A DNA stretch of 42,141 nt from Bacteroidales bacterium. Lineage in GTDB: Bacteria; Bacteroidota; Bacteroidia; Bacteroidales; ML635J-15. This document shows positions 3,602-36,358 of this stretch, in pieces. Below the pieces are notes generated by a model. That model had not been told where the DNA came from. It did no database searches and saw only the letters and a list, made by a program, of their open reading frames with translations. Both the position numbers and the translations under genes were made by a program. Numbering within the stretch: position 1 is the stretch's first letter; each line of letters begins with the position of its first letter. The DNA lies in NCBI GenBank assembly GCA_017994175.1, contig JAGOLH010000023.1, forward strand, positions 1 to 42,141, read 5' to 3'.

Positions 3602-5407
3602 TTATAAATCAACCATGGGTTTGAATCCGTCGCATCGCAACACCATTGCATTTTCGTAATAGCTCCATGTGTTTTCCACCTTAAGTATATACAATGATTG
3701 AACTATTCTATCCGACAGCTCGTTTATGCTGAGAACTTGTTCCTGACCCGCCTGCATCATTAGCCTGAATCTTGATCTTTCATCCATTTGCAGCGTAGTA
3801 TCATCCTCGGTAAATCCGGGTATATAATAAATCAGGCGAATACCATAACTCAAAAATTCACCGGAAGCCGAGGCCAATGATCCGTGCAAGGCAGCCAGCG
3901 ATGAAACATAGTCGTGTTTATCGGGAAACCCCACGTTCTCCGAAATGTTGCCTACTGCAACAATACATTGTGGCTTTTGCGGTACACTCGCTTTTATTAT
4001 CTCCAACGGTGAAAAAAAGTTGTTATTTTCCGGTTGTGTTAACTCCGATGAGGTCTGAATAAGATAATCAATAGCTATTTCAGAGGCTGATAATTGTATT
4101 GCCAACGAATTTACATCTTTGTCGCTGGAAAAATCACAAAAAATGTACTGCAGATGATTGTGCTGTATGTGGGGGAGTGCTCCATTACCTGTTATTACAG
4201 CAAATACACGGGCTCCATATTCAATGAGTTTTTCAGCGATTGCTCTCCCAAGGCCAGATTGTGCTCCCAGTACCATAGCTGTTTTGCCTTCCATTTCATG
4301 AATGATTTTATTGGGGTACGAAACGGAAAACTCGGGAACTAAATAGGTAAAGGCACCATAGTTGCCGCCAACACCTGCCATTGCTGATAAAATTTTAGTG
4401 CCCGGGCTAAGCTTGTTTTGCTGGTGTAAAAGCGATAAACTCATGGGAACGGTTGCCCCCGAAACATTTCCGTATTGCATCTGCGCATCTGTAAAAAGTT
4501 TACTACGCGGAATACCCAGCTTTTCAATTGCCGGAAGTAAAATAGCGTTACCTGTTTGATGAGGCACAAAGAAATCGATGTCGGTAGTCTGCCAGCCTGT
4601 ATTGCGAAGCGCTGATTCAGCTGCTGCCGGAATGTTGATTATTGCCCTGTCTTTAATTACGTTGTCATCCATAAAAAGATCCCATCTTTTGTCGACTCCC
4701 ACAAAATCGACCATGGAAACATCGTGATAATTGACTATATTCAGTAAACCCTGTGGTAAGGGAGTTTCAACTTTCGATAACACTACTGCAGCGGCACCAT
4801 CGCCGAAGGTTACAAACGGAACAAACTTGATACGGTTCGTAAGAAACGAAGACATGGTTTCGGAATGAACAACTACAACATGTGTCGATTCAGGGTGAAA
4901 CTTTAGGTATTCAACTGCTCTCTCAAGGTTAATATTGAAGCCGGCGCAACCCGAGGTTAGCGTAAATGCCGGAGTGGTATTGTTGATGCTCACCAGATAC
5001 GACTTCATGCTGGCTGCCATTCCCGGAGCCTGTTCGTGAGGTGAAACAGTGCTTAAGAACCACGCAGCCACCTGAGAAGGATGTACACCACTGTTGTTCA
5101 GAGCATTTCGTACTGCGCGTACTGCCAGATCAAGTGATGACTCGGCAAAGTAAATCTTTTTGTTGGTGGGAGGGAAAGGAGTTACATGATGCCGAACGGA
5201 GAAACCCATTTTTTCTTCGGTGAAATAGTCGAATGCTGTTTTTCCCGGTTGTCGCTTCAGGAATTCCTGATAATTCCTGCTGCTTACAACCTTATCGTTG
5301 CTGAATCCACTGAGATGATAATTGTGTAACGCAGTGCCAATTTCGTTGTTGGTAATTTTAAAACGGGCTTCTGCGTGCCCTATGCCTGAAAATATGTACG
5401 ATTCCAT
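3602..5407 (-). CDS. KASIII-like ketosynthase fused to a degenerate SDR domain (fusion B)
   Basis: The 601-residue protein has two parts. Residues about 1-365 are a FabH/KASIII-like condensing enzyme with an apparently intact triad: Cys154 (TSGCAGF), His283 (VPHQTGN) and Asn314 (YGNVSGA). Residues about 370-601 form a short-chain dehydrogenase/reductase domain. Its cofactor loop reads LGAQSGLG (the usual Thr is Leu), and its active-site block is YVSSL at Tyr500, so the catalytic lysine of YxxxK is missing. I infer a functional condensing half and a reductase half that is inactive or structural. It is the last gene of a four-gene unit, 4 nt after the ALDH-like gene. It is a paralogue of fusion A (6673-8535). 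Substrate is unknown. Confidence 0.85.
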   Translation of the reverse strand: MESYIFSGIGHAEARFKITNNEIGTALHNYHLSGFSNDKVVSSRNYQEFLKRQPGKTAFDYFTEEKMGFSVRHHVTPFPPTNKKIYFAESSLDLAVRAVRNALNNSGVHPSQVAAWFLSTVSPHEQAPGMAASMKSYLVSINNTTPAFTLTSGCAGFNINLERAVEYLKFHPESTHVVVVHSETMSSFLTNRIKFVPFVTFGDGAAAVVLSKVETPLPQGLLNIVNYHDVSMVDFVGVDKRWDLFMDDNVIKDRAIINIPAAAESALRNTGWQTTDIDFFVPHQTGNAILLPAIEKLGIPRSKLFTDAQMQYGNVSGATVPMSLSLLHQQNKLSPGTKILSAMAGVGGNYGAFTYLVPEFSVSYPNKIIHEMEGKTAMVLGAQSGLGRAIAEKLIEYGARVFAVITGNGALPHIQHNHLQYIFCDFSSDKDVNSLAIQLSASEIAIDYLIQTSSELTQPENNNFFSPLEIIKASVPQKPQCIVAVGNISENVGFPDKHDYVSSLAALHGSLASASGEFLSYGIRLIYYIPGFTEDDTTLQMDERSRFRLMMQAGQEQVLSINELSDRIVQSLYILKVENTWSYYENAMVLRCDGFKPMVDL

Positions 5408-5411
5408 TACA

Positions 5412-6641
5412 TTATTTATTTTCCTGAGTAATCAGTGAATACAAATCAAATTTACCACCGTTTTTAACGTATCCGCTTTCTTTCGAATAGGTGAATGCCG
5501 AATTTTTAAATCCACCCCAGTGTCCGCGATAGCCTATATTTGTGCGTAGTATATCAAGAAAATCACAATTGTCGAAAACAAAAGCATGATCAGCCTGTAA
5601 GTCTGCAATAATTTCATCTTTCATGTCCGTGCCAAATACTGATACAGCGAGCTGATAGTCGTTGTGACGTATAAAGCTGCTGATTTCTTCGGGTTTACAC
5701 TGCACAATGCTCAGTACCGGAGCAAAGTGATACTTCTGCCAAAGATCTGAATTTGGATGTGGATTTGCAATAATTGCCGGTGTAACCATTACTCCATCTT
5801 CAAGAGTTTTAATCTTGAAGTGTATTAACTCAGCACCGTTTCCGGCTGCTTCATTTACCCTCTCGGCTACTGTGCTGATAATACTTTCGAAACCAATAGG
5901 GGTAACCACTGATGTTCTGACATCAGTTCCCGTAGTAACTCCCTTAAATTGAGTGCTTAGAAGCTGCAGTACATCGTTAAAATCAACATTGGAGCTTACA
6001 ATGCATCTTTTAAAACAAACCGCAGCCTGGCCCGAGAGTATCGTGGTAAGGCGGGTGATAGAATGAATGGCCTGAGTCAGGTTGCTCTTATCGAGTATTA
6101 CAGCAGTGTTGTTGCCTGGTCCAAAATATATCAGTGTTTTTTCATGATCCCTGATACTGCCCAGATAGTTGTTTATCCAATCATCGCCAAAAACAACGAT
6201 TGATTGTATGTTGGGTGAAGTAACCGATTGCTCGAAAAAATCACGATGGCTGCCAACGAAGGTTATGTTTGGAAATAATCCACTTTCATCAACAATCTGC
6301 TTAAAAATACTGCGATAACTACGAAGCACTGTTGGAATATAAATGTGTATTGCAGTATTATTTCCGTTTGCCAGAATTGCCGGTGGCAGGCAAAGCCCCA
6401 GAAGAACGAATGAAGGGTCGCTGTAACAAGAGTAAATGGCTAGCCCTCCTTTGGTTTTGCCATCAACTGAGGCAGACCCCGATGCCCATTCTCGCATTGC
6501 TGCAATGCCTCGTTCAATATTGTCGCTGTTTACGCTAAGATTGGTGCCAATATCAGTACTGTTTGCAGTAGCAAGTTCTGCTTTCTTGTTGTAGAAAAGA
6601 TCAGCTAATTTTAGTAGTAATATTTTGTTATTAATAATCAA
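5412..6641 (-). CDS. Aldehyde-dehydrogenase-fold protein lacking canonical catalytic residues
   Basis: The 409-residue protein has ALDH family order, though shorter than the usual ~480: a Rossmann region with FGDDW in place of the FTGS loop (about residue 151), FGPGNNTAVIL (173-183) in place of ELGGK, SGQAAVCFKR (203-212) for the nucleophile loop, and HFAPVLS (305-311) for EIFGPVL. By eye, the nucleophile Cys is Ala207 (a Cys remains at 209), the general-base Glu is Phe173, and the NAD-ribose Glu and oxyanion Asn are also replaced. It may be a pseudoenzyme, a scaffold, or an enzyme of changed chemistry such as acyl reduction using Cys209. It lies between the two KASIII-SDR genes (31 nt and 4 nt gaps), which argues for a shared pathway. 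Confidence 0.75.
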   Translation of the reverse strand: MIINNKILLLKLADLFYNKKAELATANSTDIGTNLSVNSDNIERGIAAMREWASGSASVDGKTKGGLAIYSCYSDPSFVLLGLCLPPAILANGNNTAIHIYIPTVLRSYRSIFKQIVDESGLFPNITFVGSHRDFFEQSVTSPNIQSIVVFGDDWINNYLGSIRDHEKTLIYFGPGNNTAVILDKSNLTQAIHSITRLTTILSGQAAVCFKRCIVSSNVDFNDVLQLLSTQFKGVTTGTDVRTSVVTPIGFESIISTVAERVNEAAGNGAELIHFKIKTLEDGVMVTPAIIANPHPNSDLWQKYHFAPVLSIVQCKPEEISSFIRHNDYQLAVSVFGTDMKDEIIADLQADHAFVFDNCDFLDILRTNIGYRGHWGGFKNSAFTYSKESGYVKNGGKFDLYSLITQENK

Positions 6642-6672
6642 TAATTCAATTTATTAAATTACCATAATTTAA

Positions 6673-8535
6673 CTAATACTTGAAGTACCCGTCTTTTCGT
6701 ACCAGCAAATTATTCTCGAAGCTGTCACGGGTATTGGTAACTTTGGGCAGGTATAGCGACTTAACCATTCTTTCAGCTATGCGGCCGGTTTCTAAAGGTT
6801 CATTTTGTTCAATTTGCATCATTCCTGCAGCTTTTTGTTCTCTGTTCAGTAAATTTCCCATTCCACCATCAATAATCCCCGGCATATAGTAAATACATCT
6901 GGCGCCTGTATTTTGAATTTTTGTGGATATGCCTGCCGCATAAGCATGCAATGCATTTTTCGATGCAACATAAGCAGATGAGCCGGCAAAACGTGCATCT
7001 TCAGCTACCGAGCCAGTGAATAAAACGGTTTCGCTTACAAGATGCATAAGCTTATCGGTAATATGTTGGATAGCGGTTTTATTCACCATGTAGGCACGCT
7101 GCATTTCGGAATGTGGTATTTTAGTAGCACGGTCAACCATTCCCGATATTGCCGCCGTATGTACCATATACTCGATGGAAGCATATTCTCTCTTAATTTC
7201 ATCGATCATTTTGTCCATTGAATCCGGTTTGCCGAAATCGCATTGAATGCAATGAAGTTTTATTTTGTATTTACCGAGCACATCCTTCAAAAGCTTAATC
7301 TTTTCGGTATTACTATTAAATACAACTATCAGGTTTGCTCCATGCTTTGCAAGATGAGCAGCTATGGCTGAGCCAAGAGCACCTGTGGCACCGGTTATAA
7401 GTGCCGTTTTGCCTTTAAGGTGAAGTGCTTCGGAGTTGAATCCCCTGAAATCGGGAACAATGTAACTGAATCCTCCGAATTCCCCGCCCAGGCCCGCCAC
7501 GGAAGCAATAAGCCTGTTGCCTGGCAAGAGTCTTCCCGATTCATGAAGCATTGCAATGACTGCCGGTACCGATGCGCCCGAAAGGTTCCCCATTGTTTGC
7601 TGCACATCCTGAAACATCATATCAGGCAAAAGACCCATATTGCGTGCCACTTCATGCACAATAGCGTTCCCTGTTTGGTGTGGTACAAAATGACTGACTT
7701 CCGATTTGCTCCACCCCGATGTTGTAAGTAACTCATTGAAAACTGAAGTAATATTCGGTACGGCCCTGCGTTTTACCATGCGGGCATTCATATATAGCTC
7801 CCTTTGCTTATTTGCTCCCAAAAAATCGAGCATCTGCACATCTTCATAATTAACGATGTTCATTACTCCTTCGGGTTGGCGGGTTGTAATGCGACTAACA
7901 ACCACGGCTGCCGCACTGTCGCCGAAAGTTACAAAGGGCACAAAATCGGTTTCGTTCACAAGTAGTTCCGACATTACTTCGGCATGTGCAACAACAATAT
8001 GCTTCGCTTCAGGGTGATTACGCAGAAACATTACAGCACGCTCCAGATTATAGTTGAATCCAACACAGGCCGAAGTTAGTGTCATTGTCTGAGATTTATT
8101 CTCAAACCCGGTAAAATATCCTTTTAATGTTTCAGCAAGACCCGGTGCCTGTTGATGCGGTGTTGCGGTAGAAACCATCCATGCATCTACTTTTTCAGCT
8201 TGAATGCCAGAACATGCAATTGCATTTTCAACAGCCTGAATACATAAGTCAAGGCTATTCTCTGCAATACTATAACGTGCAGAAGAGGGTGGAAAAGGCA
8301 CTACATAGTAACGGGTTGTAAAACCCATTACTTGCTCGGCAAAGTAGCGGAATGGCGATACTTCGGGGTGATTGGCAGCAAAACTCTTATAGTCGCCTGA
8401 TTCCTCAATTCGGGCTTTGTCAAATCCTTTCAGAAACCCTCTTTCGATAGCGTTTTCAATTTCTGAATTTTCTATGCGATGTTTTCCCAGCGAATAGCCC
8501 AATCCGCTGAATATAATGCTATCAAATGTTGTCAT
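6673..8535 (-). CDS. KASIII-like ketosynthase fused to an intact SDR ketoreductase (fusion A)
   Basis: This is a 620-residue bifunctional protein. Residues about 1-365 form a KASIII-type condensing domain with Cys157 (TSACVGF), His286 (VPHQTGN) and Asn317 (MGNLSGA). Residues about 372-620 form a classical SDR with TGATGALG at 381-388, Ser509 and YVASK (Tyr522, Lys526) at normal spacing. The expected chemistry is Claisen condensation followed by NAD(P)H-dependent reduction of the 3-keto group. I use ATG 8535 rather than the upstream ATG 8622: the domain aligns with fusion B from this methionine, and it overlaps the crotonase stop by 14 nt, a normal coupling arrangement. No carrier protein is encoded nearby, so CoA-linked substrates are plausible (inference). 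Confidence 0.88.
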   Translation of the reverse strand: MTTFDSIIFSGLGYSLGKHRIENSEIENAIERGFLKGFDKARIEESGDYKSFAANHPEVSPFRYFAEQVMGFTTRYYVVPFPPSSARYSIAENSLDLCIQAVENAIACSGIQAEKVDAWMVSTATPHQQAPGLAETLKGYFTGFENKSQTMTLTSACVGFNYNLERAVMFLRNHPEAKHIVVAHAEVMSELLVNETDFVPFVTFGDSAAAVVVSRITTRQPEGVMNIVNYEDVQMLDFLGANKQRELYMNARMVKRRAVPNITSVFNELLTTSGWSKSEVSHFVPHQTGNAIVHEVARNMGLLPDMMFQDVQQTMGNLSGASVPAVIAMLHESGRLLPGNRLIASVAGLGGEFGGFSYIVPDFRGFNSEALHLKGKTALITGATGALGSAIAAHLAKHGANLIVVFNSNTEKIKLLKDVLGKYKIKLHCIQCDFGKPDSMDKMIDEIKREYASIEYMVHTAAISGMVDRATKIPHSEMQRAYMVNKTAIQHITDKLMHLVSETVLFTGSVAEDARFAGSSAYVASKNALHAYAAGISTKIQNTGARCIYYMPGIIDGGMGNLLNREQKAAGMMQIEQNEPLETGRIAERMVKSLYLPKVTNTRDSFENNLLVRKDGYFKY

Positions 8536-9298
8536 TACTTTTTTTCTTATTACTGAAGAAATCCTGAATTTGCTTTTTTCCGAATCGGTTAAGCAGACTG
8601 CCAAATTCTCTTGATTCAGCAATGAGGCATTCGTCGATAGGCCGGCTGAGATTCATCCATGCCAGACGCTTTGCAGTAGCAACTACTTCTGGTTGCAAAA
8701 TGTTTATGCTATTTGCAAGAGATAAACATGTGTCGTATAATTCATCGACGGAGCACACTTCCTGAACCAGTCCGAGTCGAAATGCAGTGTCTGCATTCAT
8801 TTCTCTTCCTGAAGCGAGGTAATATAGCGTATTGTTAATCCCAATAAAGCGCGACATCATGCCAATACCTCCGGCACCAGGTATCAAACCATGTTTTATC
8901 TCAGGTAATGATAGTCTGAAACCTGATGATGCAATTCTTATGTCGCAATATAAGGCCAACTCTGCACCTCCACCGGCCACCAACCCATCGAGACAGGCGA
9001 TTACCACCTGAGGCAAAATTGAAATTTTTGCAAATACTTCCTGAACAGCTATTCCGGTAATGGGAGCGTCGGATTCATCTATATCTGCAATGTCTTTCAG
9101 ATCGCCCCCTGCTGAAAATAGCCCTCCGTTACCTTTTATTATTACAGTGTTGCAGCTTTTATCAGTGGCAATACCACGAAAAGCATCATCAAGTTCATGG
9201 AGCATAGCAAAACTGATGGCATTTTTCTTTTCAGGCCTCGATAAACTCAGTATACGGGTTGCTCCGGCTTTCTCGATTTCAATGCAACGGTAAGTCAT
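8522..9298 (-). CDS. Enoyl-CoA hydratase/isomerase (crotonase) family protein
   Basis: The 258-residue crotonase has the two oxyanion-hole segments, FSAGGDL (about residues 61-67) and GLVAGGGAEL (about 105-114). Both glutamates of the hydratase mechanism appear present: one in GGGAEL and one in LPEI exactly 20 residues later, the spacing of rat mitochondrial hydratase Glu144/Glu164. The GLIPGAGG loop follows. It is therefore probably an active hydratase or dehydratase of acyl-CoA thioesters. It is the first gene of the minus-strand unit and overlaps fusion A by 14 nt. In this setting it could dehydrate the 3-hydroxyacyl product of the ketosynthase-reductase. No clear promoter box was found in the 123 nt upstream. 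Confidence 0.9.
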   Translation of the reverse strand: MTYRCIEIEKAGATRILSLSRPEKKNAISFAMLHELDDAFRGIATDKSCNTVIIKGNGGLFSAGGDLKDIADIDESDAPITGIAVQEVFAKISILPQVVIACLDGLVAGGGAELALYCDIRIASSGFRLSLPEIKHGLIPGAGGIGMMSRFIGINNTLYYLASGREMNADTAFRLGLVQEVCSVDELYDTCLSLANSINILQPEVVATAKRLAWMNLSRPIDECLIAESREFGSLLNRFGKKQIQDFFSNKKKSNDNI

Positions 9299-9421: not shown

Positions 9422-11071
9422 TTATTTTTTTATCAGTTCAATTATTGGTTGTCCACTGGAATGAGAGGGCATTGGCATCTGCAGCATTTGAGATATAGTT
9501 GGTGCGATGTCGGTTATATTTACGTTATCAAGCACGGTATTCTTCTTCACTTTCCAGCCGTACCAAAGCAATGGAACATGAGTATCATAATTATACGCAG
9601 AACCATGGTCGGCCGAATAGCTTACGTCGTAGATCCAGCCGGGTTTCAGCGCTATCATTATGTCGCCGCTTCGCTTTGGGTGAAATGAATTTTTCATTTT
9701 CTGCAATATCCCGTCATTTGCTGCATAGTTCGACATGTTATGGGTACTTATGGCATAGGCTACAGCTTCGCTGTTGATTATAAATGAGGCAATTTTATCC
9801 TGCATTTCGTTCAGTGGAATTTTGGAATCTTCTATGAGCAGCCGGTTCAGATAGATTTGCTGATTTGCAAAATCAATGATCCAGGTACCTTCGGCATACA
9901 GAGCTTTAATATAGGACGTGAGCAAAGCTGTCATATAGTGCTGTTTAAACACCCCGGCAGGTATACGGTTATCTTGCAGGTATGAAGGCACGGTGCTTAT
10001 TCCGCTGGTTGAAGTGAGATAGATAAGTACGTTGTTTTTACCGATGGTTTCTTCGAGCACCGATAAAAGCTGTGCAATTTCTTTATCAAGTCGTAAGTAC
10101 ATATCTTCAGTTTCTACAGCATCAGGGCCGAAGTATTTACTTATAACTCCGGCTGGAGAATAGCTCACAAAAAGGAAGTCGGTTATATTATCTTTGCCCA
10201 GTTCTTCGTTGAAAAGGGCATTTACAGCAAAATCGGTTGTAAGCGTATTCCCTTCGGGAACCATGGTAAGCAGTTCGTATTTTTTTACGGATTCTCTGAT
10301 TTTAGGATATACATACGGGAAAGTTTTATAAAGGCCGTCGATGCCATACTCATAAATACTTGTATCATTGAGCGATTCCTTATATTCACTTAGAGGAAGC
10401 ATGGGAATCCAGGTACGGGTAAGATAGTTTTCAGGCTGTTTTTTACTGTTTATTTCATCGACCCATTGGGGTAAAACTTTCATATAATACGTGCCCGAAA
10501 CCCAGTTTCCGGTTTCACGGTCGAACCAGTAGGCGGCATCAGCAGCAAAGCCGCCCATTAACGCTGCGCCGGTGCTGTTCATCGAAATGGAAATTACTTT
10601 CGACTGATTCCGGTTTGCCAGTTTTATTTCATCGCTGAGCGTGGGAGCCAGCAGATTTACAGGCGAAAACGCTTCAGCATTTTTGGAGCCACCAATACAT
10701 TTTGTGTTTTTGTCTTCGGTGCTTTGCACTTTTTTACCGGTAAGCGGCACATACCAGTAATCTGAAACAATTCCATGTTCAGAAGGCTCGGCACCGGTTG
10801 CAATGGTTGCATAACCGGGCGAAACTTGTGTAATACTGTAGTTTAAATTGGCATTCTGGCAGTTGGTTCCATAAATATAGAGCTTCTTAAAGCCATTTTC
10901 TCCGAATTTGTCCCAGTAACGTGTCAGGTAATCGTAACGCATCTGTTCAACCACAATGCCAACAACTAATTTGGGTTTATCGGCGGGTATTATCGGATTG
11001 TCCTGTGCCTTAATGTTTTGATAAAACAATGATAATGCAATAATGAGAATGAAAAAAAATCTTTTGTTCAT
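9422..11071 (-). CDS. Secreted PafA-like alkaline phosphatase homologue, probable pseudoenzyme
   Basis: The 549-residue protein has a signal peptide (residues 1-22, ending KAQ). The whole protein follows the PafA-type alkaline phosphatase/phosphodiesterase superfamily: VVGIVVEQMRYDYL, SPGYATIATGAEPSEHGI, AAYWFDRETGNW, FGPDAVETEDMYLRLD, YDTHVPLLWYGW. Compared with remembered PafA motifs, the first metal Asp is Glu42, the nucleophile Thr is Val83, the Asp/His pair becomes Gly308/Lys312, the Asp-His pair becomes Thr355-Ser356, and the phosphate-contacting Lys/Arg become Asn165/Thr167. Only His489 of the zinc site remains. Fold conservation with loss of catalysis suggests a binding, regulatory or structural role in the periplasm. 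Start is ATG 11071, which restores the signal peptide, 16 nt after kdsD. Confidence 0.85.
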   Translation of the reverse strand: MNKRFFFILIIALSLFYQNIKAQDNPIIPADKPKLVVGIVVEQMRYDYLTRYWDKFGENGFKKLYIYGTNCQNANLNYSITQVSPGYATIATGAEPSEHGIVSDYWYVPLTGKKVQSTEDKNTKCIGGSKNAEAFSPVNLLAPTLSDEIKLANRNQSKVISISMNSTGAALMGGFAADAAYWFDRETGNWVSGTYYMKVLPQWVDEINSKKQPENYLTRTWIPMLPLSEYKESLNDTSIYEYGIDGLYKTFPYVYPKIRESVKKYELLTMVPEGNTLTTDFAVNALFNEELGKDNITDFLFVSYSPAGVISKYFGPDAVETEDMYLRLDKEIAQLLSVLEETIGKNNVLIYLTSTSGISTVPSYLQDNRIPAGVFKQHYMTALLTSYIKALYAEGTWIIDFANQQIYLNRLLIEDSKIPLNEMQDKIASFIINSEAVAYAISTHNMSNYAANDGILQKMKNSFHPKRSGDIMIALKPGWIYDVSYSADHGSAYNYDTHVPLLWYGWKVKKNTVLDNVNITDIAPTISQMLQMPMPSHSSGQPIIELIKK

Positions 11072-11087
11072 AAAAATATCTTCTGCG

Positions 11088-12065
11088 TTATACAACACCT
11101 TCTCTGATCAGATCGTGCAGATGCACCATCCCCAGATAATTGCTTCTGCTGGTAACAATTATCTGTGTAATACTGTTTTCTTCGAGTATTCTCAAAGCTT
11201 TTACTGCCAGCTCCGATTCGTCGATGGTTTTAGGGTTTCGCGACATGATATCCTGTGCTGTCAGCTCACTTATAACTGCCAGATTCTTTTGAAGCATTCT
11301 TCTCAAATCGCCGTCGGTAATGATTCCAACCAGATTTTCGTTGTTATCAATTACTGCAGTCGCGCCCAACAGCTTACTGGTCATTTCCATGATTATGACA
11401 TCTACCTTATCGTGTATGCTTACCTTCGGCACCTGATTTTGTTTACATAGTTCGCTAACCCGCATATATAACTTACGTCCGATTGATCCTCCGGGATGAT
11501 ATCTGGCAAAATCTTCTGTTGTAAAGCCTTTCAGCTCGAGGAGGCAAACCGCCATAGCATCGCCCATTACCAGCTGAGCGGTAGTACTGCTTGTGGGTGC
11601 AAGGTTATTTGGACAGGCTTCATGTGCAACTGTGGCTTTTATAACATAATCGGCTTCCGTTGCCAGAAATGAACTGATATCCGACACCATGCCTATGAGT
11701 GTGTTACCAAGCCGTTTAATAAGCGGAATAAGTACTTTTATTTCGGGAGTATTACCACTTTTCGAAATGCATAGCACAATGTCATGTTCCTGAACAATGC
11801 CAAGATCGCCATGGATTGCGTCAGCAGCATGCATAAATATTGCGGGTGTGCCTGTGCTGTTAAGTGTTGCAACAATTTTTTGCCCGATAATCGCACTTTT
11901 TCCAATCCCAGTAACAATTAGTCTGCCTTTTGATTTTGAAATGAGATGCACCACCTCGGCAAATCTTTCATCGCAGTATTCGGGCAGGTTCTCAAGCGAT
12001 TTAATTTCCAGGATAATGGTTTTTTTTGCGACATCGAGTACGAAATCTTTTATTTTTTTATTCAT
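11088..12065 (-). CDS. kdsD: D-arabinose 5-phosphate isomerase (KpsF/GutQ family)
   Basis: The 325-residue enzyme has an N-terminal SIS sugar-isomerase domain with VTGIGKSAIIGQK (about residues 51-63), FMHAADAIHGDLG and SKSGNTPEI, followed by two CBS domains (about residues 205-325). It converts D-ribulose 5-phosphate to D-arabinose 5-phosphate, the first step toward KDO for lipopolysaccharide. The length is typical, and the SIS-CBS-CBS order separates it from simple SIS proteins. It is divergent from recQ and probably co-transcribed with the pseudophosphatase gene 16 nt downstream. A candidate TAnnTTTG box lies just upstream of its start. Paralogous GutQ-like isomerases cannot be excluded by sequence alone. 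Confidence 0.93.
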   Translation of the reverse strand: MNKKIKDFVLDVAKKTIILEIKSLENLPEYCDERFAEVVHLISKSKGRLIVTGIGKSAIIGQKIVATLNSTGTPAIFMHAADAIHGDLGIVQEHDIVLCISKSGNTPEIKVLIPLIKRLGNTLIGMVSDISSFLATEADYVIKATVAHEACPNNLAPTSSTTAQLVMGDAMAVCLLELKGFTTEDFARYHPGGSIGRKLYMRVSELCKQNQVPKVSIHDKVDVIIMEMTSKLLGATAVIDNNENLVGIITDGDLRRMLQKNLAVISELTAQDIMSRNPKTIDESELAVKALRILEENSITQIIVTSRSNYLGMVHLHDLIREGVV

Positions 12066-12082
12066 TTTCGTAAGGCTTGCTG

Positions 12083-12090
12083 CAAAAATA
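12083..12090 (-). promoter_or_regulatory. Candidate Bacteroidota -7 box for kdsD
   Basis: On the minus strand this reads TATTTTTG, matching the Bacteroidota -7 consensus TAnnTTTG, 17 nt before the kdsD ATG. No convincing -33 element is found at the normal distance, so this is a weak prediction. Confidence 0.35.
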
Positions 12091-12214
12091 ACATTATCGA
12101 CAAACGATTATTGCTTCAATAGTATGATTTAATCAACAATCTGGTATTTATAATTATTAAAAAAATAATTCTAAAAAAAAGCATGAAAATTTTATCAATG
12201 GAACAGATTTATAT

Positions 12215-12222
12215 TAACTTTG
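12215..12222 (+). promoter_or_regulatory. Candidate Bacteroidota -7 box for recQ
   Basis: TAACTTTG matches TAnnTTTG and lies 24 nt before the recQ ATG in the AT-rich recQ/kdsD divergent region. The -33 region is T-rich but lacks a clean TTTG. Confidence 0.45.
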
Positions 12223-12246
12223 AATTAGAACATCATCTGAGAAATA

Positions 12247-14430
12247 ATGCAATTCGAAGAAAAGCAAATTTTTAGTCTGCTGAAAAAGTATTTTGGTTTC
12301 GATACTTTTAAAGGGCCGCAAAGAGAAATCATTATCAGCCTTTTGGAAGGGTCCGACTCTTTTGTGCTGATGCCAACCGGGGGTGGTAAATCGTTGTGCT
12401 ATCAGTTACCGGCTCTCATGTATCCGGGGACGGCCATTATAATATCTCCGCTTATTGCACTGATGAAAAATCAGGTGGATTCGATGCGTGGATTCAGCAC
12501 CGAAGATGGTGTGGCTCATTTTATGAATTCATCACTCAGTAAAGCCGAAATACTTAAGGTAAAGGAAGATCTGGTTGCCGGAAAAACAAAACTCCTGTAT
12601 GTTGCTCCCGAATCGCTGACGAAACGCGAAAATGTCGATTTTTTGAAAAGTGTTCAAATATCTTTTTATGCCATCGACGAAGCGCATTGCATTTCGGAAT
12701 GGGGACACGACTTCCGACCAGAGTACCGGCGTATACGACCCATTATTGATGAGATTGGTAAAGCTCCCTTGATTGCCCTAACCGCTACCGCTACCCCGAA
12801 GGTTCAGCACGATATTCAAAAAAACCTTGATATGCTCGATGCCAAGGTATTTAAATCGTCGTTCCGCCGTCATAATCTCTACTACGAAGTTCGCCCGAAA
12901 GAGCATACGACCAAGGAAATCATCAAATATATTAAGAACAACCAGGGAAAATCAGGTATCATTTATTGCCTGAGTCGTAAAAAAGTGGAAGAGCTAGCCG
13001 AGAACCTGGTGGTAAACGATATTAAGGCTTTGCCGTATCATGCCGGTATGGATGCTGCTACCCGTTCGCGGAATCAGGATATGTTTTTAAATGAAGAAGC
13101 CGACATAATTGTTGCTACTATTGCATTTGGAATGGGAATCGACAAACCCGATGTGCGTTTTGTTATTCATTACAACATTCCTAAGAGCCTTGAAGGATAT
13201 TATCAGGAAACCGGACGTGCCGGGCGCGATGGAGGCGAAGGAAACTGTATCGCTTTTTACAGTTACGACGATATCCAGAAGCTTGAAAAATTCATGCAGA
13301 ACAAACCCGTAAGCGAACAGGAAATCGGTAAGCAACTGCTGCTCGAAACGGTATCCTACGCAGAGTCGTCGGTATGCAGGGTAAGGCAATTGCTGAATTA
13401 TTTCGGCGAAGTGATGGAAGAAGATTGCGGCAACTGCGATAACTGCCGTAACCCAAAACCAAAATTCGAAGCTACCGAGCAATTACAGGTACTGCTGGAG
13501 GCAATCGATCTAATGAAAGAACGCTGTAAGGGGGAACACGTGGCAAACGTACTTGTTGGAAAATCGACTGCTGAGATCAATACTTTTAAACACGATAAAC
13601 TACCTATTTTCGGTACCGGTTCCGACGAATCTGTCAAGTTCTGGAAAGCTCTGATACGTCAGGCTCTGATTGCACAGCTTATCGAAAAGGATATTGTGAA
13701 CTACGGCCTGCTGAAAATTACAAAAGTCGGCAGGGAATTCCTCAAGAAACCCCACCGGTTCATGATGACCCGCGATCACGATTATGAAGAGCAGGACGAT
13801 AACAGCGAAAATGTTACCGGTGGCACGGCTGCTGCCGATATGGTGCTGTTCTCAATGTTGAAAGATTTAAGAAAGACACTCGCAAAACAATACAATTTGC
13901 CTCCATTTGTGATTTTTGGAGACCCTTCGCTGCAGGATATGGCAATTCAATACCCTATTACCATCGAGGAGCTTACCAAGATTTCGGGAGTGGGAGTGGG
14001 TAAAGCCCAGAAATACGGAAAACCATTCGTGGAGCTTATTCATGCCCATGTGGTTGAGAACGAAATTGAACGCCCGCAGGACATGGTGGTGAAATCGGTG
14101 GTAAATAAGTCGGGAAATAAGGTTTACATCATTAAGAACATCGACTTAAAAGTTCCCCTCGACGATATTGCCGAAGCCAAAGGCCTCGAAATGATTGAAC
14201 TCATTCAGGAGATTGAGGCAATTGTGAATGCGGGAACGCGTCTTAATATCGACTACTACCTGAACAACATTATGGATGAGGACCATATTATGGATATTTA
14301 CGATTATTTCAAAGATGTTGCCGACACCGAATCGATCGAAGATGCTTTAAAAGAACTGGGTGAAAATGAGTTTTCGGAAGAAGAAGTGCGTCTGGTAAGA
14401 ATTAAGTTTATAGCCGAAATGGGTAATTAA
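12247..14430 (+). CDS. recQ: ATP-dependent DNA helicase RecQ
   Basis: The 727-residue superfamily 2 helicase carries Walker A MPTGGGKS (residues 42-49), DEAH (about 143-146), FGMGIDKPDVR and the QETGRAGRDG motif VI. An RQC zinc-binding cysteine set follows (CRVRQ...CGNCDNC, about residues 377-403), then an HRDC domain in the C-terminal third. It unwinds forked and recombination DNA intermediates for repair. It is longer than the E. coli protein (about 610 residues) because of a C-terminal extension after HRDC, as I recall for Bacteroidota RecQ. Transcribed alone and divergent from kdsD, it converges with the glycosyltransferase gene, overlapping by 4 nt at the stops. Confidence 0.96.
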   Translation: MQFEEKQIFSLLKKYFGFDTFKGPQREIIISLLEGSDSFVLMPTGGGKSLCYQLPALMYPGTAIIISPLIALMKNQVDSMRGFSTEDGVAHFMNSSLSKAEILKVKEDLVAGKTKLLYVAPESLTKRENVDFLKSVQISFYAIDEAHCISEWGHDFRPEYRRIRPIIDEIGKAPLIALTATATPKVQHDIQKNLDMLDAKVFKSSFRRHNLYYEVRPKEHTTKEIIKYIKNNQGKSGIIYCLSRKKVEELAENLVVNDIKALPYHAGMDAATRSRNQDMFLNEEADIIVATIAFGMGIDKPDVRFVIHYNIPKSLEGYYQETGRAGRDGGEGNCIAFYSYDDIQKLEKFMQNKPVSEQEIGKQLLLETVSYAESSVCRVRQLLNYFGEVMEEDCGNCDNCRNPKPKFEATEQLQVLLEAIDLMKERCKGEHVANVLVGKSTAEINTFKHDKLPIFGTGSDESVKFWKALIRQALIAQLIEKDIVNYGLLKITKVGREFLKKPHRFMMTRDHDYEEQDDNSENVTGGTAAADMVLFSMLKDLRKTLAKQYNLPPFVIFGDPSLQDMAIQYPITIEELTKISGVGVGKAQKYGKPFVELIHAHVVENEIERPQDMVVKSVVNKSGNKVYIIKNIDLKVPLDDIAEAKGLEMIELIQEIEAIVNAGTRLNIDYYLNNIMDEDHIMDIYDYFKDVADTESIEDALKELGENEFSEEEVRLVRIKFIAEMGN

Positions 14431-30211: not shown

Positions 30212-33200
30212 ATGAATACTTTGATGTTTAAAATTGCCTTGTTTGCAATAATTATTTCGGTTTTTTCGGGTGAGTTCTATCAGAAAAACGTAATTACCCC
30301 TCCCGATAAAACGTATGAAGAGTTATGGAATGAAGTAAAGGAATTCGAATCGAAAGGTCTGCCAAAATCAGCCTTAGAGGTGGTAGAGGCGATTTACAAA
30401 AAAGCAATGGCGGAACAAAACAGCGAACAGGTTACAAAAAGCTGTTTGTACAGGTATAAATACATGTATGCTCTCGAGGAAGATGGTTTGAGCAAAGTAA
30501 TAAAACAACTTGAAGCGGATATTAACATCATGCCCGGTAAGTCGAAATATTTCGGGTATATGCTTCTTGCAGAAATTTACAGCGATTACCTTGAAATGAA
30601 TTATTATGTCATAGGCCAGCGAACACGCCTGAGCGAATTTACACCTGATGACCTGGCCACCTGGGATGTTAGTCATTTTAAAGATAAGATCATTAAAAAC
30701 TATGTGCTGGCATTAAACAATGAACTGAAAACGGAGCCCATCGAAAAATACCCGGAACTCATTGAATTTACCGAAAAAGGAAAGAAATCATGTCCGACAG
30801 TTTTCGATTTGTTTTCGCACATGGCTTACAGGCTTTTTTCAACTCCGGTTTCAAACTGGTACAGCAACAACTACGACAGAAATGAAGCGATTATTACCAA
30901 CATTCAATACTGTGAAACTGCTGAAGTTTTTTCAGAGACCGATTTTCTTGCAAACGATTCAATATCTTATGCTTTCTATACGCACAAAGTGCTGAAAGAT
31001 TGGATTAATTTCAGGCTCAGTGACCCAAAATCCGCGGAAGCACTGGTTTTCGCTGACCTGATCCGGCTGAATTACTACCGGATTCATGTTCAGCATCCCG
31101 AAAAGGATAAAGTATGGATGAATACCATGCAGGCATTACACGATAAATTTTTTAAGAATCCGGTAATTGCAGAAATCGATATACTCATTGCAAACTACTA
31201 CTACGCCATTGGCTCGAAATACTCTTACAGCGATACATTATCCTGGAAAAATGCTCCCTACATGCGAAAAGCATACGATTTGGTCGATCAGGTAGTGAAA
31301 ATGTATCCCGACACTACCATATCGGCAAAGTGCATGAACCTGAAATCTTCAATCGAAAAGAAGGAAGCCGGAATGTATTCATTGCATAATAGTGGAAGCG
31401 GAAAAAACACTCAAGTTCAGATATATTACCGGAATGTGAATAAAGTTAACCTGAGCTTGCTAAAGATCGACTATGAAGATTACCGCAAAATAGAGAGAAA
31501 ATACTACGACAGGGAAGATAAAATTGCTGAATTATTGTCGAAGTCAACGATTGTAAGCACTGAGAAAATTGACCTCGGCAACGAAACCGACATGAACATG
31601 CATGCGAGGAACTATTTTGTTAAACCGTTGCCCAAAGGCCACTATTTGTATGTGTTACATCAATCCGATAATATTGCTGACGAAAGAATGCTTTTGTCGT
31701 ATAATGCCATTTTTATAACAGATTTTGTTTATACTCACAGGGCCAGCGAATCAGGTGACCTGGAGTTTTTTGTAATGGATAGAACATCCGGAGACCCTGT
31801 AAAAGGTGCTCAGATAACTTTTTACACTGAGAAATATAATTACATTACCAGCTCTTATAACTACGATAGGGTAAAGCAGCTTTTCACTGATACAAACGGT
31901 TATGTTTGTTTTAATCCAGATGATGATGACTACAGAAGCTATTATGCTGATATCAGAAAGGGTGACGATTTTGTTGCTGTAAACAATTATTTATATTCCT
32001 ACAATTACAATTATAACGACGATGACTCCGAGACGGTGACACTTTTTACCGACAGGGCTATTTATCGTCCGGGGCAAACAATATATTTCAAAGGAATTGC
32101 AACCAGTACAAAATTAATGGTTACAAAATTACTTCCCAAACTTTCAACCACAGTTGAGTTGCGCGATCCGAATTATCAGGTGGTGGGCAGTGCACAGGTT
32201 AAAACCAATAACTTCGGAAGTTTTGCAGGTAGTTTCGAAATCCCTTTAGGAACCGTTACCGGCCAGTTCCAGATATCCTGTATCGGAGGAACAAAATACA
32301 TTAGTGTTGAAGAATATAAACGTCCCAACTTCGAAGTGGTTTTTAAACCCGTGGAAGATGAATACAGAATTGGCGACAGTATCAAAGTTACTTCAAAAGT
32401 GCAGTCGTATGCAGGTTCTAACATCACCGATGCAAAAGTGAAATTTACTGTTACACGTCAGGTTTCATGGAGGGGCTGGCCATACTATTATTCATATATT
32501 CCCGCAAAAGAGGTTTGTTTTGGGGATGTGGTTACTGATGAAAATGGAGATTTTACGGTAAGCTTCAGGGCAGAGCCCGACAACGAGGTGCCGGGGCAGC
32601 AAAATGTTTGCTTCCAATACTCTGTTAGCGCAACAGTTACCGATATTACCGGTGAAACACAACAGGGTTCTACTTACGTTTTTGCAACCAATAAAAGCTT
32701 GTTGCTTGAATCAGATCTACCTGAAATGGTTAACAAAACCAGTATTGATACGCTGAGAATATACGCCAGAAACATTAATGGCAAAGATATCAATACTCAG
32801 GTAAAGGTGAGATTTGTGGCTCTGGAAGATACAAAGAACCTGCTCCAGCCTGATTTGTTTGGCAAAACTGACAGGTCGGGATACTCAAAAGAAGAATGGT
32901 ACAGTTTGAATCCGGGTGTTGCCTATTCCAACGAAAACGATTACAGAACCTTCCGTGAGTTGAAAACAGTTCTGAGTTATGATGTGAAAACCGGGGAAAA
33001 TTTCAAAATACTGATAGCCAACGATATACGTAAACTTAACCCGGGAAGATATTGTCTGAAATTGCAGGCAAAAGATAAATTTGGTGGCGATGTTGAAGAA
33101 CTGAAATATTTTACTGTGTACGACCCGGGTGTAACTGCAATGCCATATATGGCAGCGACCTTATTCATTCAGGAAAACGCTACCGTATTACCAGGGGAAA

Positions 33201-36200
33201 AAGCGATATTGTATCTCGGCACATCATTCAAAGATGTTAAATTGTCGTATGAGCTTGAACACAAAGGCGTTATTGCAGAACGAAAATGGATTAATGTAAG
33301 CAACGAAATCAAAAAAATAGAGATTCCGGTTACCGAAGATTTCCGTGGGAATTTTACTGTTCACGTGCTCTTTGTTAAAAACGGCAGACAATACACATCG
33401 ACCTTCATATTTTATGTGCCGTGGACAAACAAAGAACTGAACATTAAGCTCGAAACCTTTCGCGATAAAATTGAACCCGGTTCTAAAGAGGAATGGAAAA
33501 TTAGAATTACAGATAATGATGGAAAACCTGTCTCAGCCGAAATGCTTGCAGGCATGTATGATGCTTCTCTCGATGCTTTTACAGCCAATTCGTGGTGGCT
33601 CAACACCAATCCTTATTATTACTCTTTCCGCTATTGGGGTACATCGTGCTATAGTTTGAATGGATCCCGCTTTTTATATACATTCCCAATGAGCTATGCC
33701 AAAGTCCCCAATGATTATGTAATGTTTAACTGGAATGGTTATTCTCATGGGGGATATTATTACAGTTACGATATGAGTGGTGGGTATGAATATGAGGGCG
33801 ATATGAGGAATTATGACCGTATGGCGGTATCGGACAGTCAATCCGGCATGGCAGGCGGAAGAGAAAAAGCTGCAAAAGAAGAAGCTCCCTCAGCTGCTTA
33901 CGGTATGGCAGAAATGAGCCTTGTTGATGCTGATGAAACAGTAACAACAGCAACTCGAAACGGACCTACTTCAGGAGAAGGTAAAATGGGGCAGCAACCA
34001 AAGATAAGAGCCAATTTTAACGAGACAGCATTCTTTTATCCGCAAATGGTAAGCGACTCCAATGGAGTTATTATGCTTACATTTACTGCCCCCGAAAGCC
34101 TTACCCGCTGGAACCTGATGGCGCTTGCACATACCACCGATCTAAAAATTGGCTCTTTAAATAAACAGATTGTTACGCAGAAAGAGCTTATGCTTATGCC
34201 TAATGCCCCCAGATTTATCAGAGAAAACGATACGTTGATATTTTCGGCAAAAATAAGTAATATCAGCGAAAAACAAATTACTGGCAATACAACTGTTCGC
34301 CTATTCGATGCAATTACAATGCGTGAAATTACAAACGAATTGTTGTTGTCATCACCCGATATGCAGAAATTCGATGTTAAAGCAGGTGGCAATGTTGAAG
34401 TAAACTGGAAAATCTCGGTACCATCAGGCTTGGCAGGAGTTGTTTACCGAATTACTGCCGAAAGCGAAACCCACAGCGACGGCGAAGAGAAATACCTTCC
34501 CGTACTGCCAAACCGTATGTTGGTTACCGAATCAATACCTTTGCCAATAAGAGGGGGACAGACAAAAAAGTTCAGTTTTAATCACATGAAGCAATCTATT
34601 CAGTCATCAACTCTGACGAATTATAAACTTACCCTTGAATTTACATCGAACCCTGCATGGTATGCTGTTCAAGCGTTACCTTATCTGGCAGAATACCCGT
34701 ATGAATGTGCCGAACAAACTTTCAGCCGGTATTATGCAAATAGCCTAGCCGCATATATTGCCAACAGCGACCCAAAAATAAAAAGGGTATTCGATGTGTG
34801 GAAAAGCACTCCCGGCAGCGACGCGCTGAAATCGAATCTGGAGAAAAACGAAGAGTTGAAAGCCTTGTTGCTGGAAGAAACCCCCTGGGTGCTTGAAGCT
34901 CAGGATGAAACAGAACGCAAGCATCGTATTGCCCTGCTTTTCGATGTTAACCAGATGAAAAACCAATTGAGTACCGCATTATCAAAACTTAAGAAAATGC
35001 AGGTGTACAACGGAGCATGGCCATGGTTTGACGGAATGCCGGAAGATCGCTATATCACACAGCATATTGTAGGAGGCATAGGTCATTTGCAAAAACTGGG
35101 CGTGGTTGATGTTTCATCAAACAACGAACTGTATTCAATGGCAGGAAAGGCTATCGATTATATGGACAATGAATTGGTAAAAGATTACAAAGCCCTGCTG
35201 AAGTATTATACTCCCAAAGAAATGGAACTTAATCATCTGGGATATTATCAGATTCATTACCTCTATGTGAGAAGCTTTTATAAAGATATATGGCCAATAC
35301 CGGAAAAGTCAAAAACAGCCTTCGAATATTATAAAAAGCAAGCCGAAAAATACTGGTTGAGCAACAATCGCTACATGCAGGGAATGTTGGCCCTTGCACT
35401 CTTCAGGTTCGATGAAAAAGAGGTTGCTTCCGATATTGTGGCATCACTGAAAGAGTATTCACTGCAAAGTGAAGAAATGGGTATGTACTGGAAATCCGAT
35501 GCCGGATACTATTGGTATGAGGCACCTATCGAAACACAGTCGCTGATGATTGAAGTTTTCAATGAAGTAAGCTCCGACAGTATTGCAGTTGAAGAAATGA
35601 AGATATGGTTGCTGAAACAAAAACAGACACAGGACTGGAAGACAACCAAAGCCACCGCTGATGCTATATATGCTCTGTTGCTTACCGGTATGGAATTGCT
35701 CAGCGATGACCAGTTGGTTGAAATTACACTGGGAACAGAAAAGATTAACCCGGCCGAAATGAAAGACTTGAACGTGGAAGCAGGAACGGGATATTTTTCA
35801 AAATTTTGGAGTGGCTCTGAAATTAAACCGGAAATGGCAGATATTACAGTAAAAAAGCCCGGTAAAGGGATTGGATGGGGCGCAGTGTATTGGCAATATT
35901 TTGAGCAATTAGATAAAATTACATCGTTCAAGGATACACCGTTAAAAATCGATAAGAAACTGTTTGTCGAACTGCGTAAGGATGGTAAAGTAGTAATGAC
36001 CCCTGTAACAGAAAAAACTCAGCTTCATGTTGGCGACAGGGTTATTGTAAGAATTGAGATACGGACAGACAGAAACATGGAATATGTTCATCTGAAAGAT
36101 ATGCGTGCTGCCTGTTTCGAACCGGAATCGGTGTTCTCGGGGTATAGATATGAACACGGATTGGGTTTCTACCAGAGCATCCGGGATGCGTCAATGAATT

Positions 36201-36358
36201 TCTTTATTTCATATCTTCATCAGGGTACCTATGTCTTTGAATATCCCCTGATAGTTTCTCAGAGAGGAGAATTCAGCAATGGCATTACTACGATGCAATG
36301 TATGTACGCCCCCGAATTTACCACACACAGTCAGGGCATTCGTGTCAAAGTGCAATAG
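30212..36358 (+). CDS. Alpha-2-macroglobulin family protein with CAEQ thioester motif
   Basis: The 2048-residue exported protein has an N-terminal hydrophobic signal without a lipobox, then a ~600-residue helical region. MG2-like blocks follow (TDRAIYRPGQTIYFKG, about residues 609-624), several macroglobulin beta domains, an A2M segment (AFFYPQM...LTRWNLMALAHT, about 1272-1310), and the thioester domain with ECAEQ: Cys1499 and Gln1502 can form the thioester. C-terminal helical repeats and a receptor-like beta domain end it. Such proteins trap proteases in the periplasm. A Tyr/Gly/Ser-rich stretch (about residues 1125-1260) occupies the bait-like region. The usual partner PBP1c is not adjacent. 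It ends in a terminator. Confidence 0.93.
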   Translation: MNTLMFKIALFAIIISVFSGEFYQKNVITPPDKTYEELWNEVKEFESKGLPKSALEVVEAIYKKAMAEQNSEQVTKSCLYRYKYMYALEEDGLSKVIKQLEADINIMPGKSKYFGYMLLAEIYSDYLEMNYYVIGQRTRLSEFTPDDLATWDVSHFKDKIIKNYVLALNNELKTEPIEKYPELIEFTEKGKKSCPTVFDLFSHMAYRLFSTPVSNWYSNNYDRNEAIITNIQYCETAEVFSETDFLANDSISYAFYTHKVLKDWINFRLSDPKSAEALVFADLIRLNYYRIHVQHPEKDKVWMNTMQALHDKFFKNPVIAEIDILIANYYYAIGSKYSYSDTLSWKNAPYMRKAYDLVDQVVKMYPDTTISAKCMNLKSSIEKKEAGMYSLHNSGSGKNTQVQIYYRNVNKVNLSLLKIDYEDYRKIERKYYDREDKIAELLSKSTIVSTEKIDLGNETDMNMHARNYFVKPLPKGHYLYVLHQSDNIADERMLLSYNAIFITDFVYTHRASESGDLEFFVMDRTSGDPVKGAQITFYTEKYNYITSSYNYDRVKQLFTDTNGYVCFNPDDDDYRSYYADIRKGDDFVAVNNYLYSYNYNYNDDDSETVTLFTDRAIYRPGQTIYFKGIATSTKLMVTKLLPKLSTTVELRDPNYQVVGSAQVKTNNFGSFAGSFEIPLGTVTGQFQISCIGGTKYISVEEYKRPNFEVVFKPVEDEYRIGDSIKVTSKVQSYAGSNITDAKVKFTVTRQVSWRGWPYYYSYIPAKEVCFGDVVTDENGDFTVSFRAEPDNEVPGQQNVCFQYSVSATVTDITGETQQGSTYVFATNKSLLLESDLPEMVNKTSIDTLRIYARNINGKDINTQVKVRFVALEDTKNLLQPDLFGKTDRSGYSKEEWYSLNPGVAYSNENDYRTFRELKTVLSYDVKTGENFKILIANDIRKLNPGRYCLKLQAKDKFGGDVEELKYFTVYDPGVTAMPYMAATLFIQENATVLPGEKAILYLGTSFKDVKLSYELEHKGVIAERKWINVSNEIKKIEIPVTEDFRGNFTVHVLFVKNGRQYTSTFIFYVPWTNKELNIKLETFRDKIEPGSKEEWKIRITDNDGKPVSAEMLAGMYDASLDAFTANSWWLNTNPYYYSFRYWGTSCYSLNGSRFLYTFPMSYAKVPNDYVMFNWNGYSHGGYYYSYDMSGGYEYEGDMRNYDRMAVSDSQSGMAGGREKAAKEEAPSAAYGMAEMSLVDADETVTTATRNGPTSGEGKMGQQPKIRANFNETAFFYPQMVSDSNGVIMLTFTAPESLTRWNLMALAHTTDLKIGSLNKQIVTQKELMLMPNAPRFIRENDTLIFSAKISNISEKQITGNTTVRLFDAITMREITNELLLSSPDMQKFDVKAGGNVEVNWKISVPSGLAGVVYRITAESETHSDGEEKYLPVLPNRMLVTESIPLPIRGGQTKKFSFNHMKQSIQSSTLTNYKLTLEFTSNPAWYAVQALPYLAEYPYECAEQTFSRYYANSLAAYIANSDPKIKRVFDVWKSTPGSDALKSNLEKNEELKALLLEETPWVLEAQDETERKHRIALLFDVNQMKNQLSTALSKLKKMQVYNGAWPWFDGMPEDRYITQHIVGGIGHLQKLGVVDVSSNNELYSMAGKAIDYMDNELVKDYKALLKYYTPKEMELNHLGYYQIHYLYVRSFYKDIWPIPEKSKTAFEYYKKQAEKYWLSNNRYMQGMLALALFRFDEKEVASDIVASLKEYSLQSEEMGMYWKSDAGYYWYEAPIETQSLMIEVFNEVSSDSIAVEEMKIWLLKQKQTQDWKTTKATADAIYALLLTGMELLSDDQLVEITLGTEKINPAEMKDLNVEAGTGYFSKFWSGSEIKPEMADITVKKPGKGIGWGAVYWQYFEQLDKITSFKDTPLKIDKKLFVELRKDGKVVMTPVTEKTQLHVGDRVIVRIEIRTDRNMEYVHLKDMRAACFEPESVFSGYRYEHGLGFYQSIRDASMNFFISYLHQGTYVFEYPLIVSQRGEFSNGITTMQCMYAPEFTTHSQGIRVKVQ

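Follow-up and report, generated by a model that had tools for sequence, protein, structure and literature searches.

In plants and yeast, very-long-chain acyl elongases (KCS/ELO, KCR, HCD, ECR) lengthen chains that are already made: the condensing enzyme, which is KASIII-like in plants, works with an SDR ketoreductase, and the dehydratase is a separate protein. The cassette described here is like them in its working scheme only, being in contrast soluble, fused and bacterial, with a crotonase in the place of the dehydratase and a core devoid of a dedicated enoyl reductase. Its constituents also resemble single enzymes of fatty acid synthesis, namely FabH/KASIII and the FabG-type SDR 3-oxoacyl reductases, as well as OleA/OleABCD, PqsD/PqsBC and the dialkylresorcinol (DarB), flexirubin and aryl polyene enzymes, which likewise carry out thiolase-superfamily condensations outside housekeeping FAS II. 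To our knowledge, none of the Ole, Pqs, DarB, flexirubin and aryl polyene clusters has paired KASIII-SDR fusions together with a crotonase, and a condensing enzyme joined with a ketoreductase in one chain is unusual outside large type I synthases. The literature search returned no description of a KASIII-SDR fusion cassette, which is no proof of novelty, and no named pathway with this gene set was found, in line with the original prediction. Thus, the parts belong to known families, while their pairing and fusion match no characterised system that we found.

Organization and distribution of the cassette

The analysed window is a stretch of 42,141 nucleotides from a Bacteroidales bacterium (GCA_017994175.1, contig JAGOLH010000023.1), in which the cassette consists of the following genes:

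3602..5407, minus strand: KS2, KASIII-SDR fusion (Pfam KASIII N- and C-terminal domains and adh_short)
5412..6641, minus strand: ALDH-fold protein (Pfam Aldedh, 2e-28)
6673..8535, minus strand: KS1, KASIII-SDR fusion (Pfam KASIII N- and C-terminal domains and adh_short)
8522..9298, minus strand: crotonase of the enoyl-CoA hydratase family (Pfam ECH_1, 9e-46)

All four predicted genes are present at these positions, and along the minus strand the order is crotonase, KS1, ALDH-fold gene and KS2, with the 14-nt overlap followed by 31-nt and 4-nt gaps that had been claimed for the unit. The start of KS1 was taken as the ATG at 8535, since its homologues begin there, although a longer TTG-started frame extends to 8622; the ALDH-fold gene starts with TTG. 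Pfam domains confirm that KASIII and SDR are joined in one chain in two genes. As 90 fusion sequences of like length and identical architecture could be assembled and the AlphaFold2 model of KS1 is a single confident two-domain protein (pLDDT 91, pTM 0.91), the fusions are not artefacts. In comparison with NCBIfam profiles, none of the four proteins came near the cut-offs. A seemingly natural KS1-KS2 fusion of 1,094 residues in one relative (locus L114 of genome G320, 9944-13228) was rejected, as the translation contains a run of X and the scaffold a run of N, i.e., a scaffold gap.

We found that the four-gene order, for which a conservation check had been proposed, recurs among 57 surveyed loci as crotonase-KS1-[ALDH-fold]-KS2, well above chance expectation; the cassette is thus real and conserved. 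The crotonase and KS1 genes are neighbors in 24 loci, mostly at a spacing of -8 to +68 nt, and KS2 directly follows KS1 in 26. All six loci that possess the ALDH-fold gene have it between the two fusions. Beyond the unit, the neighbors track lineage synteny and vary between lineages, so that the cassette is self-contained and its flanks are not conserved. This includes the downstream nitroreductase, whose suggested membership was abandoned after the 57 loci yielded one weak match (27%). In turn, the reported lack of a carrier protein, ligase or enoyl reductase extends to the whole conserved core, in which no acyltransferase was found either; across the 57 loci, there are also no conserved genes for release, cyclisation, export or regulation. 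The neighbor survey revealed none of the companion genes of the OleABCD, PqsBC, DarB, flexirubin and aryl polyene clusters. Elsewhere in the window, positions 27-2482 encode consecutively a CGGC-domain protein, two MinD/NUBPL-like P-loop ATPases with ferredoxin inserts and a small ferredoxin, and ATPase/ferredoxin genes are also found near the cassette crotonase of locus L156 (genome G321). Positions 30212-36358 encode a bacterial alpha-2-macroglobulin family protein of 2,048 residues.

Within the window's family, 30 of 31 genomes have the KS pair, among them all 21 of good quality. Of 295 genomes sampled across the order Bacteroidales, it was detected in 12, and of 395 in a phylum sample in one, the window's own. 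A scan of one genome per species (approximately 85,000 species) returned 54 loci: 52 belong to records named as Bacteroidota, Bacteroidetes, Bacteroidales, Bacteroidia, Salinivirgaceae or Marinilabiliales, one to a 'Candidatus Delongbacteria' bin, possibly mis-binned, and one is an unrelated weak SDR match. The pair is, therefore, essentially confined to Bacteroidales. The sources of carrier records include rumen, reticulum, omasum and groundwater, and a search of viral contigs revealed no relative of the cassette. The cassette is a marker of an uncultured Bacteroidales family that inhabits the rumen and further anaerobic sites.

Condensing and reducing domains of the fusions

The condensing triad Cys-His-Asn, which corresponds to C157/H286/N317 in KS1, is intact by alignment in all 90 fusions, including KS1 and KS2 of the window. 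The first 360 residues of the KS1 model fit the KASIII fold, with Z up to 43.7 to FabH structures (311 residues, rmsd 1.6), whereas the SDR domain was assigned by Pfam and alignment, as the KAS domain fills the structure-match list. OleA and PqsD are among the structural matches. Apart from this fold (Z ~43) and triad, the fusions share 22-26% identity with FabH and differ from it by the fused SDR domain and an insertion of ~25-30 residues near the N-terminus. The two fusions of the window score 117 and 114 bits against the FabH profile TIGR00747, below the cut-off of 292, while FabH of the same genome reaches 329 bits and is encoded in a plsX-fabH pair. As this pair is located elsewhere in the genome, we rejected the fusions as candidates for housekeeping FabH.

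Asn247 and Arg249, together with Trp32, Arg36 and Arg151, count among the CoA/ACP docking residues of FabH. The FabH of the window genome retains all five, but none survives in KS1 or KS2, as judged from an alignment to E. coli FabH in which the residue identities at the named positions were checked. Trp32, Arg36 and Arg151 of FabH stack on or bind CoA (PMC4606726), and the five replacements together speak against ordinary CoA priming. In 88 of the 90 fusions, Ala stands where FabH has Phe87, the gate residue that limits FabH to short acyl chains. Small residues at this site go with a preference for long acyl chains (PMC3734052), and the change to Ala suggests a longer acyl pocket in the fusions. 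Taken together, these residues suggest a longer acyl substrate that is delivered in a non-standard manner.

The SDR domain of KS1 has in common with FabG-type reductases the Gly-rich nucleotide motif and an intact Ser509/Tyr522/Lys526 site, but is the C-terminal domain of a KAS protein and is degenerate in most KS2 proteins. In the window KS2, N, Y and L are found where S, Y and K are expected, and the YxxxK motif reads YVSSL. The original prediction of two ketosynthase-ketoreductase chains hence stands as far as both KAS domains are concerned, but needs refining for the reductase of KS2, which is very probably dead as judged by these residues. The unit would therefore comprise two condensing enzymes and one working reductase.

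This asymmetry is reflected in the whole set, in which Ser-Tyr-Lys is retained in 55 of the 90 fusions. In the maximum-likelihood tree of KAS domains, the root of which is uncertain given a very long FabH outgroup branch, first-position genes form one clade (29 rows, SH-aLRT 100) and all of them have Ser-Tyr-Lys. Second-position genes fall outside this clade and their SDR site is mostly degenerate, except for the f82 and f90-like lineages, where it is intact. On this tree, the SDR state switched three times or more, in each case outside the first-position clade. We conclude that KS1 and KS2 arose by an ancient duplication and that, by its catalytic residues, the SDR function of second-position genes has been lost repeatedly. 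In the 18 genomes with both genes, mean identities of the KAS domains are 55% for KS1 and 57% for KS2, compared to 46% and 36%, respectively, for the SDR domains, and the SDR of KS2 is less conserved than that of KS1 in 151 of 153 pairs. Since the KAS domain of KS2 is as conserved as that of KS1 and only its SDR is less so, KS2 is retained for condensation, with its reductase in decay.

Two condensations with unequal reduction would fit a short polyketide-like synthase of defined length, in which KS1 condenses and reduces, the crotonase dehydrates, and KS2 adds a malonyl unit whose keto group is left. The resulting 3-oxo-4-enoyl product would be released, decarboxylated or cyclised to a small signal or antibiotic. 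Both the crotonase-KS1-KS2 order and the fact that it is the second reductase which was lost agree with such a scheme, and PqsD, AbyA1 and the R1128 priming KS, FabH-fold relatives with roles of this kind, are among the structural matches. We nevertheless consider it unlikely: with the second SDR intact in the f82 and f90-like lineages, the product would change under an unchanged gene order, no release, cyclising, export or regulatory genes are conserved at the 57 loci, and a secondary metabolite would not usually be retained almost throughout one family.

The crotonase and the ALDH-fold protein

The crotonase had been described as active-looking, and both catalytic Glu residues are indeed there (window residues 113 and 133, equivalent to E144 and E164 of rat ECH). 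Among its relatives, they are kept in 38/39 and 39/39, respectively, and both together in 38/39. Among solved structures, that of a short-chain enoyl-CoA hydratase is closest (5e-37), and the cassette crotonase is the only one matched in the window genome. In several rumen genomes, the crotonase is located away from the fusions, beside the lysine aminomutase genes kamA and kamB, and given this placement it may serve a second pathway. At loci L150-L155 of rumen relatives, genes for lysine 2,3-aminomutase (kamA) and the kamB reactivase are positioned closely upstream of the lone crotonase. The nearby crotonase of locus L122 was rejected as a cassette member, as one catalytic Glu is missing; its neighbors include carboxyltransferase, acyl-CoA ligase and HMG-lyase-like genes, and it probably belongs to leucine breakdown. 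In some relatives, two contigs (G192:C249 and G309:C75) carry a separate second cluster of crotonase, 3-hydroxyacyl-CoA dehydrogenase, thiolase-like and NMO/FabK-like genes.

The short-chain nearest relative of the crotonase relates to another reading, a C4-CoA route in which the cassette would replace thiolase and 3-hydroxybutyryl-CoA dehydrogenase, turning acetyl-CoA and malonyl-CoA into acetoacetyl-, 3-hydroxybutyryl- and crotonyl-CoA, with the last reduced to butyryl-CoA by acyl-CoA dehydrogenase/Etf. The window genome would suit it, as it has no clear thiolase or 3-hydroxyacyl-CoA dehydrogenase, contains a single crotonase with the above short-chain relative and possesses acyl-CoA dehydrogenase and Etf genes. 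Among the 26 KS-positive genomes, however, 13 have a full thiolase and 11 a good 3-hydroxyacyl-CoA dehydrogenase match. With half of the carriers having thiolase, replacement is not the rule, and a substitution of thiolase/Hbd by the fusions was rejected for want of such a co-occurrence pattern. Moreover, the Phe87 to Ala change widens the acyl pocket rather than restricting it, the CoA-contact residues are gone, and a malonyl-CoA route is costly for a fermenter; overall, we regard this route as very improbable. In the window genome, the genes for acyl-CoA dehydrogenase and the Etf subunits (EtfB/EtfA) adjoin that of an HpaB-family protein in one cluster (L170, G000:C71, 5798-10355). By eye, we take this HpaB-family protein to resemble 4-hydroxybutyryl-CoA dehydratase, and the cluster is possibly a route from 4-hydroxybutyrate to butyrate.

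As for the ALDH-fold protein, it has the fold of the aldehyde dehydrogenase superfamily (succinate-semialdehyde dehydrogenase type): its best model (pLDDT 82, the remaining four being far lower) aligns with succinate-semialdehyde dehydrogenases at Z 37.5 over 383 residues. In contrast to these enzymes, it is devoid of about the first 45 residues, the catalytic Cys and the general-base Glu, and in the window protein the oxyanion Asn is missing as well. The catalytic Cys is absent from all six relatives, which have GQAA or GQVA at the motif, whereas the f82-type relatives retain the general-base Glu and the oxyanion Asn. The Cys column is Ala in PDB 3vz3 and Cys in PDB 3vz1. As Cys, Glu and Asn are missing, the window protein is unlikely to be a dehydrogenase and is probably a pseudoenzyme. 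Among 393 Bacteroidales genomes, its gene was found in five (5 of the 26 KS-positive ones), each copy inside the cassette between the fusions, which makes it part of the system, though an optional one.

Proposed function and linked enzymes in relatives

With its paired fusions, the repeated decay of one partner's reductase and an ALDH pseudoenzyme specific to it, the cassette looks like a small machine for building chains that yields a product of its own. The prediction that the set could condense, reduce and dehydrate a thioester chain holds in principle, considering that catalytic residues are intact in the crotonase, in both KAS domains and in the SDR of KS1. In some uncultured gut and sediment Bacteroidales, the cassette probably serves to produce or extend a fatty acyl chain of an unusual kind. 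In the reading that we prefer and to which we give about an even chance, it is a module devoted to elongating acyl chains, which supplements normal type II fatty acid synthesis. The KASIII domain of KS1 and/or KS2 would join a medium or long acyl thioester to a malonyl thioester in a decarboxylative condensation, after which the KS1 SDR would reduce the 3-oxo product to 3-hydroxyacyl and the crotonase would dehydrate this to the 2-enoyl thioester. KS1 and KS2 would function as a pair, possibly a PqsBC-like heterodimer, with the KS2 reductase redundant and decayed, and the ALDH-fold protein, if present, would be a non-catalytic partner. The carrier and the final enoyl reductase would come from the FAS II of the cell, or the last reduction might be performed by a FabK-like enzyme, crotonase-linked in some relatives; the product would be handed to an acyltransferase, probably into lipid. 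Gene content, tight spacing, conservation, the intact or lost catalytic residues and the ancient duplication are observations, whereas the chemistry, chain length, carrier, heterodimer, product and lipid destination are the parts of the proposal that we infer.

In favor of the elongation module we count the triad in 90/90 fusions, the intact SDR of all first-position genes, the equal conservation of the two KAS domains, the retention in 30/31 genomes of the family, the Phe87 to Ala change, the Glu pair of the crotonase, the genome's own fabH and the FabK-like and acyltransferase genes linked in relatives; against it, the absence of a carrier, ligase, enoyl reductase and acyltransferase from the conserved core, the crotonase that lies elsewhere in several rumen genomes, and the short-chain nature of the nearest characterised crotonases. 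The usual carriers differ, CoA for crotonases and ACP for elongation by FabH, and the CoA-contact residues are replaced; the carrier is thereby ambiguous, which also counts against this proposal. A more specific version is tentative and has, in our view, somewhat less than an even chance: an acyl elongase specific to Bacteroidales, built from two paired fusions of which one has a reductase in decay, plus a crotonase and, as scaffold, the ALDH pseudoenzyme; its lipid or signalling acyl product would be nearly universal in the family.

Enzymes that could complete or use such a chain are linked to the cassette in a minority of loci. At L100, L101 and L103, genes for a FabK-like enzyme, an LpxL-like acyltransferase and the crotonase lie side by side and converge on the fusion genes (the L100 FabK-like flavoenzyme scores 160 bits against TIGR03151, below the cut-off of 453), and at L148 and L149 a FabK-like gene adjoins the crotonase. 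A PlsC-like acyltransferase gene is located immediately upstream of the crotonase at L070, and its relative takes the equal position at L071. The occurrence of LpxL-like and PlsC-like acyltransferases beside the cassette or the crotonase in several lineages would agree with the supply of 3-hydroxyacyl or 2-enoyl chains for a specific Bacteroidales lipid (acylated amines, glycine/serine lipids, lipid A), the crotonase running in the hydration direction or as an isomerase. This we hold to be quite unlikely, since conserved acyltransferase neighbors are absent from most loci, and LpxL relatives, found once per genome in nearly every genome, are also housekeeping. An acyltransferase preceding the crotonase was rejected as a general partner, as only family c46 (L070, L071) of the upstream candidates is of this type, while c41 resembles an ion channel and c48 a lipoprotein. 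Likewise, the presumed ACAD/Etf operon partners at L099-L103 proved to be an endonuclease/phosphatase-type protein, the FabK-like enzyme and the LpxL-like acyltransferase.
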